Source of the DNA: an uncultured Spirochaetales bacterium
GTDB taxonomy: Bacteria; Spirochaetota; Spirochaetia; Sphaerochaetales; Sphaerochaetaceae
Assembly (NCBI GenBank): GCA_949285145.1
Contig: CASDXQ010000016.1
Coordinates: 1 to 34,798 of the forward strand
Direction: 5' to 3'
Length of the DNA stretch: 34,798 nucleotides
Both the position numbers and the translations under genes were made by a program. Shown here piece by piece: positions 4,810 through 10,365 of this stretch (positions are counted from its first letter, which is position 1; every line of letters starts with the position of its first letter). Below the pieces are notes generated by a model. That model made no database searches. It was given only the letters and a program-made list of their open reading frames with translations, and had not been told where the DNA came from.

Positions 4810-5409
4810 TCAGTTTTTGTCAAGCCCTATCAGATAGATTTCAAAGCTGTCATCCCTGCAGGCTTTAGGCTTGAAAGCTTTTGCTTTCCTGAACATTGCC
4901 CTCATTTTCCTCAGTATTTCCTCCTGTCCTCCTCCCTGGAATATCTTTAGAACGAGGTTGCCATGTGCCGCAAGCTGTTCTTCTGCCAGAAATACAACCT
5001 GTTCTGCAAGATACTCTGATCTTGAAGTATCCACGGTTCTGTTTCCGGTTGTCATCGGTGCTGCATCCGATATTATGCAGTCATAAGGACCTTCCTCAAC
5101 AAGGCGTGCCCTTATTTCCCTGCTGAAGGCATCACCTGTTATTTCAATCACGGTAGGTGGCACGGGATCAAGCCTCAGAGGATTGAGATCACATGAGACA
5201 ATCTTTCCTTTTCCCTTGATGAGCGCCCTGTGAACGTAAAGAGTCCAGGAACCGGGCGCAGCACCGACATCAAGCACGCTGTCTCCCGGTTTTATCAGAT
5301 GGTGTGCTGCATTTATCTCTTCAAGTTTGTATACCGAACGTGCTGGATATCCCTCTCTGTGGGCTCTCTGTGTGTATGAATCAGCCTTGTCTCGTCTGCT
5401 TGTTGCCAT
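4810..5409 (-). CDS. rlmE: 23S rRNA (uridine-2552-2'-O)-methyltransferase RlmE (FtsJ/RrmJ)
   Basis: 199 residues from ATG 5409. The Rossmann methyltransferase motif I is LDVGAAPGSWTLY (46-58), and the catalytic tetrad K-D-K-E can be assigned to K28, D115, K155 and E190. RlmE methylates the ribose of U2552 in the A loop and helps late 50S assembly. A longer frame starts at TTG 5493, but the extra 28 residues lie over a terminator hairpin and have no homology feel, so I reject them. The ATG has no Shine-Dalgarno; instead TG-A-TAATAT sits 7 nt upstream, which suggests a leaderless mRNA starting near 5409-5411. The gene lies directly behind the terminator of a sigma-54-dependent small RNA. Confidence 0.9.
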   Translation of the reverse strand: MATSRRDKADSYTQRAHREGYPARSVYKLEEINAAHHLIKPGDSVLDVGAAPGSWTLYVHRALIKGKGKIVSCDLNPLRLDPVPPTVIEITGDAFSREIRARLVEEGPYDCIISDAAPMTTGNRTVDTSRSEYLAEQVVFLAEEQLAAHGNLVLKIFQGGGQEEILRKMRAMFRKAKAFKPKACRDDSFEIYLIGLDKN

Positions 5410-5416
5410 GTTGGAA

Positions 5417-5425
5417 ATATTATCA
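5417..5425 (-). promoter_or_regulatory. extended -10 promoter of rlmE
   Basis: On the minus strand TG-A-TAATAT ends 7 nt before the ATG. The position 17 bp further upstream is only the T-run of the preceding terminator, so the promoter would depend on the TG extension. It would produce an mRNA with essentially no 5' leader. Confidence 0.4.
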
Positions 5426-5437
5426 GCAACAGAAGAA

Positions 5438-5540
5438 TAAAAAAAGTGCCGGGCGGAATAAATTGGGGTGGGAGAGAGGGCCGTCCGGCACAAGTTTTAT
5501 TTTTCATACAAAGGAGGCATGAAAAACTGTTGCTCTATGC
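5438..5540 (-). ncRNA. sigma-54-dependent small RNA A (about 100 nt)
   Basis: A GG-N10-GC promoter (5549-5566) predicts a start near 5540, and a strong terminator ends the transcript near 5438. No credible reading frame lies inside. The 5' part (AGAGCAACA, a U-run, then CCTCCTTT) is shared with RNA B just upstream, which indicates duplication. CCTCCTTT is complementary to the Shine-Dalgarno AAAGGAGG. The 24-nt terminator loop is cytosine-rich (CCCTCTCTCCCACCCC), a second likely seed for G-rich ribosome binding sites. By analogy with Qrr and GlmY/GlmZ, which are sigma-54-controlled in other phyla, I infer a trans-acting regulator. No homology to these is claimed. Confidence 0.55.
5439..5491 (-). 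terminator. terminator of small RNA A
   Basis: On the minus strand GTGCCGG-A-CGG (5491-5481) pairs with CCG-C-CCGGCAC (5456-5446): ten pairs with one A/C mismatch and a 24-nt pyrimidine-rich loop. Seven T (5445-5439) follow. It isolates rlmE from upstream transcription. Confidence 0.75.
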
Positions 5541-5548
5541 AAAAATAT

Positions 5549-5566
5549 AAGCAAAAGCCATGCCAA
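5549..5566 (-). promoter_or_regulatory. sigma-54 (-24/-12) promoter of small RNA A
   Basis: The minus strand reads TTGGCATGGCTTTTGCTT. The invariant GG and GC dinucleotides are separated by the required 10 nt, and it matches the TTGGCACG-N4-TTGC consensus except C to T in the -24 box and one base near it. An almost identical element lies about 120 bp upstream. Confidence 0.6.
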
Positions 5567-5580
5567 ACACATGACGAGGA

Positions 5581-5612
5581 ATAAAAGAGGCATCCGGGAG
5601 CTCCGGATGCCT
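5581..5612 (-). terminator. terminator of small RNA B
   Basis: AGGCATCCGG and CCGGATGCCT form a perfect 10-bp stem with a 5-nt loop (AGCTC on the minus strand). Only on the minus strand is it followed by a T-rich tract (CTTTTATT); on the plus strand no T-run follows. This fixes the direction of the transcript. Confidence 0.7.
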
Positions 5613-5659
5613 GATATTTCACACTAAAAGGAGGTTGAAAAAAACTTGTTGCTCTGTAC
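5581..5659 (-). ncRNA. sigma-54-dependent small RNA B (about 79 nt)
   Basis: It starts about 12 nt after the GC of the promoter at 5668-5685 and ends in a perfect 10-bp hairpin with a T-rich tail. Its 5' block (AGAGCAACAAG, U-run, CAACCTCCTTTTAG) parallels RNA A, with two extra U and small differences, so the two are diverged duplicates. The CCTCCTTT segment can mask Shine-Dalgarno sequences. CAACCTCCTT is exactly complementary to 441-450 in the candidate small RNA near thpR. No coding frame is plausible. Confidence 0.55.
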
Positions 5660-5667
5660 AAATCTAT

Positions 5668-5685
5668 ATGCAAAGACCATGCCAA
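5668..5685 (-). promoter_or_regulatory. sigma-54 (-24/-12) promoter of small RNA B
   Basis: The minus strand reads TTGGCATGGTCTTTGCAT, with GG and GC exactly 10 nt apart. The -12 box TTGCA matches the consensus, and the -24 box differs only in TTGGCAT for TTGGCAC. The same -24 variant is used in the promoter of RNA A. Confidence 0.6.
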
Positions 5686-5728
5686 CAGGTTTTCAACATG
5701 ATTCTCCGTATAAAAACATATTTTCAGA

Positions 5729-5745
5729 TGTGAAAAAACTTCACA
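5729..5745. promoter_or_regulatory. 17-bp inverted repeat, possible enhancer (UAS) of the small RNA locus
   Basis: TGTGAA-AAAAC-TTCACA is a perfect 6-5-6 inverted repeat centred about 79 bp upstream of the predicted start of RNA B. This distance is usual for bacterial enhancer-binding protein sites. It also lies just upstream of the rhomboid promoter on the other strand, so it may serve that gene instead. Confidence 0.35.
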
Positions 5746-5799: not shown

Positions 5800-6426
5800 A
5801 TGAAAAATACATTCTTCAATAAGAAATTTGCATATACATATAATAATATTACGGCAATGCTGATTGCAGCCAATATTGCCGTATTCTGTCTGACTTATTT
5901 CCTGTTCCCTCGTCTGACGTATACGCTTGCCATGATCCCGGGTTCAATCTATTACAATCATTCCTACTGGCAGTTCGTGACTTACATGTTCACTCATGCA
6001 TCAGTAAGCCATCTGCTTTTCAATGTGCTTTCCCTTTACATATTCGCAACTGCTGTTGAAAGAAGAGTGGGAAGCAGGGAATTCCTGCTTTACTATTTTC
6101 TGACAGGAACTCTGTCAGGCATTGCAAGCTATGGTGTCTATTACCTGACGAATACAAATGTCGTGCTTCTGGGCGCATCCGGCGCCGTATATTCCCTTCT
6201 GATGCTGTTTTCCGTTCTGTATCCGCACTCTGTGATATATGTTTTCGGTATAATCCCGGTACCGGCGCCGCTGCTCATAATACTGTATTTCGTTATCGAA
6301 CTGTTCTCCGGGCTGCTGTCCTATGACGGGATTGCCCACATGACGCATCTTTTCGGTCTAGTGACGGGGCTTCTCTACATTCTCATAAGAATGAGGCTGA
6401 ACCCGTTGAGAGAATGGAGAAGGTGA
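5800..6426 (+). CDS. rhomboid-family intramembrane serine protease
   Basis: 208 residues with six hydrophobic segments, the bacterial rhomboid core. The catalytic dyad is visible: Ser127 in GASGAV and His183 in AHMTHLFG. The oxyanion Asn is N75 in HLLFNVLSLY, and the L1 region with YWQFVTYMFTHAS is also typical. The enzyme cleaves transmembrane helices of other membrane proteins; its substrate is unknown. I chose the ATG at 5800 rather than an upstream start at 5746. The latter would add 18 polar residues and run over the promoter, while the ATG sits 7 nt after a -10 box. There is no Shine-Dalgarno. Confidence 0.88.
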   Translation: MKNTFFNKKFAYTYNNITAMLIAANIAVFCLTYFLFPRLTYTLAMIPGSIYYNHSYWQFVTYMFTHASVSHLLFNVLSLYIFATAVERRVGSREFLLYYFLTGTLSGIASYGVYYLTNTNVVLLGASGAVYSLLMLFSVLYPHSVIYVFGIIPVPAPLLIILYFVIELFSGLLSYDGIAHMTHLFGLVTGLLYILIRMRLNPLREWRR

Positions 6427-6747: not shown

Positions 6748-7467
6748 ATGAAAAAGATTCTTATTATCGGTCTTGCACTGATAATGTGCATGGGTATGGT
6801 GTTTGCTAATTACAATCTTATTCTAAGTGCAACCGTTGAAGGCATTACTGAGCCTGACAATAATGATCCAGTAACAGGTGATGATGAAACACCTGATATT
6901 GATGTTAATGGACTGCAGGGGTGGCTTTATTTTGATAGGACCGGATCAGGCAATCTGGGTGATAAAGACAGGTCCGGTCTTAAAGAGATAAATCCTGATA
7001 GCAATAATAGTACAGATCTTTATTTCTCTGATTTCGATCTTACAGGTAAGGCCTCTGGTGCTGATGCTCTTTATCTTTATATCGCCGCTGGTGAAAATAC
7101 AAAAGCCGGCAACGATGTTGTTGCATCAGTAACGTATTTTTCTGAGCACGGATGGGAGTTGTGCGATGCTGATGGAGAGCCATATGCTGAGGGTATGCCT
7201 GGATATAAAAATGTCCCAATAACATTTATATCTTCTGTTCAAGGTTATTCCGGTGCGGATACTCCGGTGACTCCGTATTTAAGTGTGGAAAGTGAAAATA
7301 AGGATGCCGGTGACAATTCTGAGACGATTACACTCACAGCTGCCGCTGGTACAAATACGGTAGATTCTGCGATTGTAGCTAAAACAACAGTTGTATGGGA
7401 ACAGGAGGCAGATTTACAGGCTGGTAGCTATGAAGCGACAGTTGCTATTACAATTGCAGCTAATTAA
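6748..7467 (+). CDS. exported beta-rich protein, paralog 1 of the array
   Basis: 239 residues beginning with a signal peptide (MKKILIIGLALIMCMGMVFA, cleavage near residue 20). The mature part is rich in Thr, Ser, Asp and Val and should form beta strands. Two features recur in the next three genes: a central block of the form LYLYIAAG-x-N ending in a strand before GW (SVTYFSEHGWEL), and a C-terminal strand AGSYEATVAITIAAN. The latter resembles the AGxYxDxVxVxV end of spore-coat-U and fimbrial subunit domains. No chaperone or usher gene is in the window. The protein is presumably periplasmic or on the surface. RBS GGAGGG is well placed. Function is unknown. Confidence 0.7.
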   Translation: MKKILIIGLALIMCMGMVFANYNLILSATVEGITEPDNNDPVTGDDETPDIDVNGLQGWLYFDRTGSGNLGDKDRSGLKEINPDSNNSTDLYFSDFDLTGKASGADALYLYIAAGENTKAGNDVVASVTYFSEHGWELCDADGEPYAEGMPGYKNVPITFISSVQGYSGADTPVTPYLSVESENKDAGDNSETITLTAAAGTNTVDSAIVAKTTVVWEQEADLQAGSYEATVAITIAAN

Positions 7468-7500
7468 AGATAATCAGCCTGCTGTTTGACGGTGTTATAA

Positions 7501-7524
7501 CAGGAGGCACTATTGTGCTTCCTG
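7501..7524 (+). repeat. imperfect hairpin between paralogs 1 and 2
   Basis: CAGGA-G-GCAC (7501-7510) pairs with GTGC-T-TCCTG around the loop TATT. There is no T-run, so it looks like an RNA stability or processing element or a weak attenuator in the 184-nt gap rather than a full terminator. Confidence 0.35.
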
Positions 7525-7567
7525 TCTACCGGTTTCCGCATGTACAGTGTTTGAAGGAAAGCAGTGT

Positions 7568-7651
7568 ATGAATAAATGCGGAAATTATTCAAATTGTTTA
7601 TTCTGCTTTTTCAGTGATAAATGTATTAAACATTTTATACGGGGATCTTGA
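7568..7651 (+). CDS. possible small cysteine-rich peptide (27 aa)
   Basis: The frame encodes 27 residues with cysteines at 4, 10, 13 and 18 and a basic end. An AAGGA motif (7554-7558) lies 9 nt before the ATG, and the TGA stop is directly followed by the ATG of paralog 2. This could be a leader peptide coupling translation to the next gene, or simply a chance frame. No family is recognised. Confidence 0.25.
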   Translation: MNKCGNYSNCLFCFFSDKCIKHFIRGS

Positions 7652-8269
7652 ATGAAGAAAGTAATATTGCTTTGTTGCTTGATTTCTTTATTCATTGTTA
7701 ATGCGTTTGCTTTGCCAAATACTTCTGATACGCTGAATGTCAGTGTCGCTGTAACTGAAGGCGCAGGGGCTGATAAAGATGAGGAAGATATAGTTCTTTC
7801 ACAAGGAATAATTCTTTCATTCCGGTATAAGATTCTTGACAATGATAATTACATTCCTGCAAATCTGGATGATTTTACAGTTGTCGAAAATAATGCTTCT
7901 GTATCGGTGACACTGCGTGGAGAGCATAGTTTATATCTGGCTGTTGGCGTAAATGGTAATCCTGTGAAGGATACAGCAGTGTCTCTTGCTTTTAATGTTG
8001 ATGGCTGGTATTTGGATAGTGGAGATAACAAAGTTGATGAATCATCTGCTACTATATCGCTTCGCGAGAATGGTATTGTAAAGCTATCACCTGTAGATAG
8101 TATGATTAGTACGCAGATTGAAGAGCCGAATATTCTGAAAATAATGCATTCTGCCGGACTTCAGAAAGAAAAGGTTTTTGCCGGATATGCTGTGTATGAA
8201 TGGAATGCTGTTTCTCCTAATGCAGGTTTGTACACAGCTACAATAACAGTAGGAATATCGGCAGCATAG
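7652..8269 (+). CDS. exported beta-rich protein, paralog 2 of the array
   Basis: 205 residues with a signal peptide (about 1-20, ending NAFA). It shares the array's central pattern, SLYLAVGVNGN followed by AVSLAFNVDGWYL, and the end AGLYTATITVGISAA. Codon use is visibly AT-richer than the flanking housekeeping genes (many TTA, AAT, GAT). The ATG is preceded by GGGGA at 7 nt. No cysteine remains after the signal peptide, so disulfides are not used. A structural or adhesive subunit is the best guess; function is unproven. Confidence 0.7.
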   Translation: MKKVILLCCLISLFIVNAFALPNTSDTLNVSVAVTEGAGADKDEEDIVLSQGIILSFRYKILDNDNYIPANLDDFTVVENNASVSVTLRGEHSLYLAVGVNGNPVKDTAVSLAFNVDGWYLDSGDNKVDESSATISLRENGIVKLSPVDSMISTQIEEPNILKIMHSAGLQKEKVFAGYAVYEWNAVSPNAGLYTATITVGISAA

Positions 8270-8282
8270 GCAGGTATGTTAC

Positions 8283-8957
8283 ATGACGAAACGGGTTTTA
8301 CCATTATTGCTGCTTTTTTCAGTCATTATTTGTAGTTCTGTTTTTGCAACAGTTGAAGATGGGAAAAAAGCGGCATCAGGTGTTTTTACACTTCAACTTG
8401 GTACTAATGTAAAAGACGGGTCTGGTACTTTTGAGGAAATTGAAAACATACCGGGCTATGACATAAATGGGATAACAATCTATCTGGGATACCGGTTAGG
8501 AAATTATTCTGCGAATGTACAGATGAAGGATCTTGTTCCAATGTCCGGTGAGAATGAGCAGCATGACACTGTTATCAATCTGGTTCCTGCTGATGATGAA
8601 TCCGCTGCCGATACTTCCGTCACTATTTATCTTGCTGCGGATTCAAACGTCAAATCGAATGTTTCTGTACGATTAGGTTTTAATGCAGGTGAAGGGTGGA
8701 TCCGTGAAAACGGTGATTTCTCTATTGAGATCCTCTCTTATTCTGGCGTCAGAACAGATATTATGTATCCCGATAACACAAATGTCACGGCAGTTGTTAT
8801 CGGAGGAGAACAGATCCAGCTGAATGCGCATCCGGGTAAACCGAAAGGTGAGGCGACACCGATTATCGCCTACTCGGTTCTTACATGGCCGAATGAAGGA
8901 ATACCGGCTGGGAACTACAATGCGGACGTTTCAGTTGTGATAGTGAATGAGGGATGA
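8283..8957 (+). CDS. exported beta-rich protein, paralog 3 of the array
   Basis: 224 residues with a signal peptide (MTKRVLPLLLLFSVIICSSVFA). The common core is present: VTIYLAADSNVKSNVSVRLGFNAGEGWIRE in the middle and a C-terminal AGNYNADVSVVIVNEG. It follows paralog 2 after 13 nt, so the two are cotranscribed. The frame overlaps an upstream alternative start of the next gene by 4 nt. The protein is secreted across the inner membrane and has no predicted anchor. Confidence 0.7.
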   Translation: MTKRVLPLLLLFSVIICSSVFATVEDGKKAASGVFTLQLGTNVKDGSGTFEEIENIPGYDINGITIYLGYRLGNYSANVQMKDLVPMSGENEQHDTVINLVPADDESAADTSVTIYLAADSNVKSNVSVRLGFNAGEGWIRENGDFSIEILSYSGVRTDIMYPDNTNVTAVVIGGEQIQLNAHPGKPKGEATPIIAYSVLTWPNEGIPAGNYNADVSVVIVNEG

Positions 8958-8968
8958 AGGGGGTTGAT

Positions 8969-9664
8969 ATGAGGAAGTACGCCATCGTGTTCTTGATAAT
9001 AACTGTGAGTTTCTTTTTTCCGCTGTTCGCGGCGGATGAGGCATCTCTTTCTCCGGTTCCGGCAATCGGTACTCTTCACATGTCAAGCAGTGTCGAACGT
9101 AATGCCGGAGTTGTGGTTCCGGAGGGAGCGGAGCTTGTGGGAAATATTCTTGTCGAGTACAGCCTGAACAGCTCCGAATGGTATTATGTGAACGAATCAG
9201 CGGTAACTGTTGATTCTCTCGGTGCCCAGAGCGATTCCATCTATCTCCGGGCAAGATATTACGGCAATGAGCCTTCAGAGTATAACTGTACCGTTGCTTT
9301 CTCAACTACGGGCTGGAACAGGACATCAAGAAGCTTCATCTCATCGCGCTCTGCAGATACAGAGAGAGATTACTATGACCAGATCAACGCAAATTCCGAC
9401 CTTCCCATTACGTTCGGCAATCTTGATATCTCATATACGGGAACAGAAGCCTCTGTGCAGAATTACGGGGCGGGCTATGACAGTCTGCGCAGCAATATAA
9501 TGGTTGAAAGCTCCTCTGACGATTCTTTCCGTCTGGTAGTTCCTGTACAGGGGCCTATCAATGGGGATCTGATAGCAACGCTTGAGGCTTCATGGCCGCA
9601 GAGCATACTGCCCAGCGGTGATTATTCTGCAGATATACAGATTGCTGTCAGCACGGGAGCATGA
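8969..9664 (+). CDS. exported beta-rich protein, paralog 4 of the array
   Basis: 231 residues from ATG 8969, chosen over ATG 8954 because AAGGGGG sits at the right distance and the signal peptide (MRKYAIVFLIITVSFFFPLFAADE) then begins cleanly. The array motifs appear as SIYLRARYYGN, TVAFSTTGWNR and the end SGDYSADIQIAVSTGA. Codon use is closer to the genome average than in paralogs 1 and 2. It lies 11 nt after paralog 3, so the operon continues. Confidence 0.7.
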   Translation: MRKYAIVFLIITVSFFFPLFAADEASLSPVPAIGTLHMSSSVERNAGVVVPEGAELVGNILVEYSLNSSEWYYVNESAVTVDSLGAQSDSIYLRARYYGNEPSEYNCTVAFSTTGWNRTSRSFISSRSADTERDYYDQINANSDLPITFGNLDISYTGTEASVQNYGAGYDSLRSNIMVESSSDDSFRLVVPVQGPINGDLIATLEASWPQSILPSGDYSADIQIAVSTGA

Positions 9665-9714
9665 AACATTTTGGACATACGGAAAATATATCTCATGCAG
9701 GAGGAGGTGAAAAT

Positions 9715-10365
9715 ATGAAGAAGAGAATCATTACAGCAGCCGCTGCTGTACTTCTGTGCCTTTCCTGTATGTTTGCCGAAGGTACGGCAGCATATGAAAC
9801 CCCGGCAGGACAGACTGTTTATACAGCTCAGGTTATCCTCAATATCCAGGATGAGACCAAGGTCGCATGGACATCTGATAAGTATGAACCTGGTAGCAAT
9901 TTTGCTTCAATATCTGATGGTTTGGTATCACTTCATGAAAACCCCCAGTCCGGGCAGTATACCAGCGCAGGTTCTGGCATCTTTGCTTCCGGGGAGTCCA
10001 ATCTTGATACTGCTGCGGCGAGAATAAAGATTTACGGCACTCCTCTTTATGAAGAGGGAAATAACACAGACCCGGAACGCATTGATTATAAACTACTTCT
10101 GGGAGCTCTGGAAAATGTTGAAAATAAGGTCACAGACGTTAACTTGTCGACAGCCAGCAATGCCGAAAGCACGGGTTACGGCACTCTTCTTGCTGAATTC
10201 TCTTCCACGTCTGAAAATGATAATTCCTCGGGATCCTGGCAACCTTGGGTATTCTCTATTCCCATAACAATAGAGACGGTCGGAGATTCACAGGAAACTG
10301 TGAATAAACTGTCCGGTGGAACAAGTTTAACGGGTACTCTCACACTTTGTGTAGAGTCCAGTTAA
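9715..10365 (+). CDS. exported protein, last gene of the array
   Basis: 216 residues from ATG 9715, which follows the strong RBS AGGAGGAGG. The frame is open upstream to 9661, but that part is not signal-like. The signal peptide is MKKRIITAAAAVLLCLSCMFA. The remainder is Ser/Thr/Asn-rich and beta-prone, but the GW block and the AGxY end of paralogs 1-4 are missing; it ends TLTGTLTLCVESS-like instead (one cysteine). It may be a different subunit type, for example a tip or base component, made by the same operon. No family is recognised. Confidence 0.6.
   Translation: MKKRIITAAAAVLLCLSCMFAEGTAAYETPAGQTVYTAQVILNIQDETKVAWTSDKYEPGSNFASISDGLVSLHENPQSGQYTSAGSGIFASGESNLDTAAARIKIYGTPLYEEGNNTDPERIDYKLLLGALENVENKVTDVNLSTASNAESTGYGTLLAEFSSTSENDNSSGSWQPWVFSIPITIETVGDSQETVNKLSGGTSLTGTLTLCVESS

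Follow-up and report, generated by a model that had tools for sequence, protein, structure and literature searches.

What do two nearly identical GG-N10-GC elements transcribe that lie in tandem on the minus strand upstream of rlmE? An earlier note, made from the letters of the DNA, had proposed that they drive twin sigma-54-dependent small RNA genes. We pursued this proposal in the window, the whole stretch of 34,798 nt that was analyzed, which comes from a gut spirochaete, a member of the Sphaerochaetaceae in the same genus as Candidatus Aphodenecus. The elements were found 119 bp apart, at 5685-5669 (unit A, TTGGCATGGTCTTTGCA) and 5566-5550 (unit B, TTGGCATGGCTTTTGCT), and both match the sigma-54 promoter pattern. 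In the window TTGGCAYN5TTGC occurs twice, each time at one of these promoters (0.07 matches in shuffles), and the longer TTGGCAYRN4TTGCW has four matches in the 2.06 Mb genome, in which a control pattern had none. Two of the four are at this locus; the others stand upstream of a sigma-70-type gene and of a gene resembling a pspA paralogue. The rpoN gene is present in this genome and in 136 of the 139 genomes of the family. On one side the locus is bordered by rlmE (FtsJ/RrmJ; 4810-5409, minus strand; Pfam FtsJ 1.3e-41, and synteny), and on the other by a divergent rhomboid protease gene (5800-6426, plus strand; Pfam Rhomboid 1.3e-32).

After its -24/-12 promoter, each unit has a spacer that varies, a conserved 5' block of the form ACAGAGCAACAG-U5-7-CA...CCUCCUUU, and a terminator. 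The motif AGAGCAACA, followed by the U-run, CA, CCUCCUUU and the terminator hairpin, stands at the distance expected for transcripts starting at about 5658 and 5539, in agreement with the 5659 and 5540 that had been estimated before. The predicted sRNA A (5582-5658, minus strand, ~77 nt) would run from a +1 placed at 5658 (+/-2) by its spacing from the -12 element to the terminator, and the predicted sRNA B (5439-5539, minus strand, ~101 nt) from a +1 at 5539 to its own. The block reads AGAGCAACAAGU7CAACCUCCUUU in sRNA A (5627-5655) and AGAGCAACAGU5CAUGCCUCCUUU in sRNA B (5510-5535), and its pattern occurs in these two places only (0.08 expected). In predicted folds the C-rich motif is unpaired in a loop; that of sRNA B is a hairpin of GUUUUUCAU and AUGAAAAAU whose loop holds CCUCCUUU. 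The terminator scan returned terminator A (5612-5578), which consists of AGGCATCCGG, AGCTC and CCGGATGCCT, followed by CTTTTATTCC. Terminator B (5446-5491; stem 5491-5481 with 5456-5446, T7 at 5445-5439) is missing from the scan list because its loop is long, and is plain in the sequence; the loop (5480-5465) is C-rich, CCCTCTCTCCCACCCC. Both T-tracts can be read on the minus strand only. The claim that nothing protein-coding fits inside either unit did not hold to the letter, since a mechanical minus-strand open reading frame of 91 codons (5772-5497) spans both. U-runs and linkers vary by indels among relatives, which makes a conserved reading frame unlikely.

Is this layout conserved as expected of a promoter and its transcript? 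We built a sequence model of the promoter and 5' block, R1, from 27 seed units (alignment A1), in all of which the GG and GC dinucleotides are invariant. R1 recovered the element from 128 of the 139 family genomes, spread over 19 of 22 genera, in one to four copies per genome and usually two; relatives that carry it include Sphaerochaeta halotolerans. In the window it matched 5620-5685 (sRNA A, minus strand, E 1.9e-15) and 5504-5566 (sRNA B, minus strand, E 8.7e-16), the window being itself one of the R1 seed sequences. Of 92 units examined, 91 have CCUCCUU; TTGC and the block are mostly 12-17 nt apart, and the U-run has 5-7 residues. The spacer between -12 and +1 varies while the flanking promoter and 5' block are kept; this is the pattern expected of a promoter plus transcript, with the non-conserved sequence in its proper place. 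Within the genus, both-side changes occur at 7 of 9 pairs of the terminator A stem and at 4 of 11 pairs of the terminator B stem, counts attained by 0 or 1 of 500 shuffles. Covariation was counted within the genus alone because MAFFT misaligns the terminator stems across genera. The hairpin with CCUCC in its loop (hairpin 1) varies so little in sequence that it draws no support from covariation.

A blastn search with the 301-bp segment hit 29 of 61 genomes, nearly all of the same family, among them 16 of 16 of the genus if one includes G002, which was matched by a spurious short alignment alone. In that genome (95 percent complete) rpoN is present and a recognisable unit absent, which may reflect loss, divergence or an assembly gap. 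Presence or absence of rpoN was ruled out as the reason for sRNA-less genomes, nearly all of which carry the gene. Diverged homologues occur in three further families (f3, f4 and f17), most of them directly before rlmE; they have the promoter and UUUUUCAUACCUCC in common, and several have a C-rich terminator loop. Their seeds (GCAACUAG, GCAGUC) are unlike that of the Sphaerochaetaceae, which makes U-tract-CAUACCUCC the most ancient part. Weak R1 matches in family f24 (G306 and G365) were both inspected and are not units; like a match in G059, they look coding. Pattern matches scattered outside the Spirochaetes (e.g. Desulfovibrio, Bradyrhizobium, Clostridia) were taken as chance, the three that were read (L072, L087 and L089) all being without a unit, and the plasmids searched gave no match. 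Rfam returned nothing at gathering score in the window, and for seven related loci nothing even at E values as high as 1, in line with the view that these RNAs are unrelated to Qrr and GlmY/Z.

The sequence features by which a sigma-54 sRNA gene is recognised are found here: a GG-N10-GC promoter, rpoN in the genome, an upstream dyad and an intrinsic terminator on the same strand. At this level, independent units with sigma-54 promoters, dyad and terminators, conserved throughout the family, are well supported, and we infer that both units are transcribed. Each genomic test that could be run supports the twin sigma-54 sRNA reading. Two of these had been named in the earlier note as conditions that would refute it, a missing rpoN gene and loss of the GG/GC dinucleotides in relatives, and both outcomes favor the proposal.

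The dyad, TGTGMA-N5-TKCACA (17 bp), is exact in 37 of 91 unit upstreams (0.1 in shuffles) and present with at most one mismatch in 65 (0.2 expected from shuffles), counts in which some upstreams take in a dyad that belongs to an adjacent unit. The window copy, TGTGAAGTTTTTTCACA (5729-5745), is a putative activator site; it begins 60 bp ahead of the unit A -24 element and is the sole exact TGTGMAN5TKCACA match in the genome. Coupled to the sigma-54 promoter pattern, the dyad was found in 46 of 138 family genomes, and a reversed control in none. Thirty such loci were examined, of which 29 stand before a recognised unit and the thirtieth (L182) before a diverged one; two further matches, in G027 and G161, stand before a sigma-70-type factor gene near an NtrC-type response regulator gene. 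Across these inspected loci, the pairing of dyad and promoter is near-exclusive to the units. Since units without a nearby rhomboid gene retain the dyad, it belongs to the sRNA. It is probably the binding site of an activator, judging from this recurrence; helical phasing of dyad to promoter, at 10-11 bp, was not seen. Candidate activators in the window genome are two AtoC/NtrC-like response regulators, E1 (C1) and E2 (C17); a third protein, E3, is PspF. Relatives of E1 and E2 are both widespread in the small genomes checked, which singles out neither. A CRP-type protein may read the dyad instead. Other related features were seen in passing: a dyad-like TGTTACAAATTTTCACA (L032, 2108-2133) lies upstream of a groES-like gene and possibly serves the same regulator, and two pspA-like genes have sigma-54 promoters (L038, 2122, plus strand; L033, 1501, plus strand), one of the two being named pspA by NCBIfam and one lying divergent from pspF.

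How would the RNAs act? Beyond the units themselves we infer an activator, an action in trans, a block of translation, a set of targets and an envelope theme, and the scheme that joins them strikes us as probable. Two tandem sibling genes, each with its own sigma-54 promoter, would be turned on upon some signal by an NtrC-type activator that probably binds the upstream dyad. Each RNA would offer a conserved single-stranded 5' region first and an intrinsic terminator last, with CCUCCUUU exposed in a hairpin loop or a single-stranded stretch. The motif and the adjoining U-tract, which are complementary to AAGGAGG...AUGAAAAAA, would most likely pair in trans with Shine-Dalgarno and start regions and block translation, and mRNAs of exported proteins would be affected more often. 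A gene for Hfq was found in none of 15 genomes, in which positive controls were detected, and such pairing would proceed without Hfq.

Mean duplex energies with start regions are lower for the sRNAs than for shuffled RNAs, and an anti-Shine-Dalgarno action is plausible from the complementarity. Among 283 start regions of the genome itself, predicted duplex energies favored genes for signal-peptide or N-terminal-membrane proteins, with an AUC of 0.71 for sRNA A (p 5e-6) and 0.63 for sRNA B (p 0.004); in a Sphaerochaeta genome (272 genes) the AUC values were 0.62, 0.57 and 0.57, the signal-peptide classifier and start calls behind all these figures being crude. None of 40 mononucleotide shuffles attained any of these values in either genome; since shuffling breaks the anti-Shine-Dalgarno motif, this shows that the motif matters, not that targets are specific. 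Mutation of CCUCC in silico abolished the exported-gene preference of sRNA A. When folding costs were added, the AUC was 0.61 for sRNA A and 0.48 for sRNA B, for which the effect was gone. The predicted bias towards exported proteins is thus modest. The best single candidate target is the window gene at 9715-10365, which encodes a predicted secreted protein and, once folding costs are counted, ranks first in silico for sRNA A. The plus strand of the window carries at 6748-10365 a cluster of genes for predicted secreted proteins of ~200-240 aa, and none of the three tested had a Pfam match.

The sigma-54 sRNAs might instead serve one or a few specific mRNA partners, recognised through the seed ACAGAGCAACAG, with the CCUCC loop adding affinity and no general exported theme. 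Within the family the conservation of the seed equals or exceeds that of CCUCC, though other families have a different one; no other part of the RNA is conserved more strongly, yet the exported-gene bias is independent of it, since scrambling the seed in silico did not lower the preference of sRNA A (AUC 0.63). These observations lend weight to specific partners, whereas the examined part of the genome, roughly 20 percent, yielded no recognisable target with extended pairing to the seed; we take this explanation seriously without holding it to be the probable one. A bolder version of the translation-block scheme, which we consider unlikely, would make the locus the RNA arm of an ancient spirochaete sigma-54 envelope response: one activator with its dyad would command one to four sibling RNAs, mimics of the 16S rRNA 3' end (CACCUCCUU), which without Hfq would turn down translation for the whole class of exported proteins. 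If that were true, the dyad-driven sigma-70-type factor of some lineages would make RNA and sigma cascade a single switch.

Could the C-rich loops, instead of pairing with mRNA, titrate some other RNA or a protein that binds RNA? Units of type B have a second, long C-rich loop (CUCUCUCCCACCCC) that is preserved while its stem drifts, and the one to four copies are near-identical, both of which would suit a sponge. Type A, by contrast, has the first loop alone, and Hfq, the usual hub of such titration, is the very protein not found in the 15 genomes. The complementarity of CCUCCUUU and the U-tract to start regions, with mean duplex energies below those of shuffled RNAs, likewise speaks for mRNA pairing. 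We therefore think titration improbable and retain trans pairing with Shine-Dalgarno regions as the preferred action.

The neighborhood raises the question of whether the units belong to rlmE. The usual gene order is a divergent rhomboid gene, one to four units, and rlmE. Of 113 unit matches, among which one Sphaerochaeta unit appears twice owing to an overlap of promoter matches, 83 are followed by rlmE on the same strand, 82 have a divergent rhomboid gene upstream, and 95 have at least one of these. The last unit stands at a near-constant distance before rlmE (in most cases 143-200 nt between -24 and ATG, at many loci and also in other families), as one would expect if unit B, and A with it, were a regulated 5' leader, transcribed from sigma-54 through an attenuator with the short RNAs as by-products. 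This is very improbable in light of the start of rlmE itself. In the window, a -10 box of its own (TGATAATATTTCCAACATG, 5409-5425) immediately precedes the rlmE ATG, and a Shine-Dalgarno sequence is absent. The same holds in the families that were sampled: a TANNNT box is present in 55 of 56 rlmE upstreams, nearly always 6-7 nt ahead of the start codon (background, 41 of 435 genes), and a Shine-Dalgarno match in 1 of 56 (background, 299 of 435). Most likely, as read from these signals, rlmE is leaderless and transcribed from its own promoter 3' of the sRNA terminator, and consequently the units would not be its leader. Arrays of up to four units and copies far from rlmE, moreover, retain promoter, 5' block, dyad and terminator. 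Together with a leaderless rlmE, such arrays and copies elsewhere mark the units as independent genes. In three loci of one genus (L018, L042 and L075) the sRNA is not next to rlmE and instead adjoins a divergent gene resembling apt. A leaderless rlmE mRNA should escape an anti-Shine-Dalgarno RNA, also under the class-wide envelope response.

The plus strand has a negligible claim to function: the reverse complement of the 5' block does resemble a ribosome-binding site and start codon for small cysteine-rich peptides (MKNCCSMQ... and a related second one) behind AAGGAGG, but the AGGAGG-to-start spacing is 0-1 nt, start codon or frame is lost in relatives (e.g. TTTTTTCACCTCC and TTTTTTTCAATATACCTCC), and promoters and T-tracts are readable on the minus strand only.

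Sigma-54-driven sRNAs are known mainly in proteobacteria and usually require Hfq. Searches of the open-access literature found no Sphaerochaeta sRNA and no sigma-54-dependent spirochaete sRNA described, which agrees with the earlier note in that no such locus was known in this group; an rlmE-adjacent sigma-54 sRNA gene is apparently undescribed. It would add a new RNA regulator of the stress type to a phylum with few known. A compact version found family-wide, with no Hfq detected, a characteristic putative activator site and a constant gene neighborhood, would offer an entry into RNA regulation in the Sphaerochaetaceae, both host-associated and environmental, and since the unit is also present in cultured members, Sphaerochaeta halotolerans among them, the scheme is directly testable.

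The closest parallels are Qrr1-5 of Vibrio (sigma-54, LuxO), likewise several sibling sRNAs with sigma-54 promoters and an NtrC-family activator, the activator here being putative. Qrr sRNAs use Hfq, which was not found in 15 genomes here, and their sequences are unrelated, the units here having no Rfam match. GlmY/GlmZ of Enterobacteriaceae (sigma-54, GlrR) are also a sigma-54 sRNA pair with an envelope theme, which here is tentative, and also differ in sequence; glmY is cited as sigma-54 dependent in PMC3162934. GlmZ activates glmS and is controlled by RapZ (PMC7073468), in contrast to the ribosome-binding-site blocking that we propose. Comparative genomics has linked sigma-54 to control of the cell exterior (PMC3162934), a theme to which the present unit would also tie it. 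Tandem sibling sRNAs are known from Neisseria as NgncR_162/163 (PMC9973317), and LhrC, AbcR and RoxS/RsaE are sRNAs with C-rich loops (PMC8216469). Sibling copies and C-rich loops are shared with the units described here, the sequences being unrelated. In these known sRNAs the C-rich loops pair with Shine-Dalgarno regions; to our knowledge none of them is sigma-54 dependent. Among spirochaetes, the Rrp2-RpoN-RpoS cascade of Borrelia couples sigma-54 to an NtrC-type response regulator (PMC3037356, PMC2940757). As there, a strict sigma-54 promoter precedes an RpoD/RpoS-type sigma gene in the present genome (L032, G000:C1, 597-1517, minus strand), and in G027 and G161 the sigma gene preceded by a unit-type dyad (L271, 6070-6939; L272, 6961-7815) has a response-regulator EBP gene near it. 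By analogy, this arrangement is reminiscent of the sigma-54 to sigma-70 step from RpoN to RpoS. We know of no RNA output of the Borrelia cascade, whereas the Sphaerochaetaceae would have added one in the form of these twin sRNAs.
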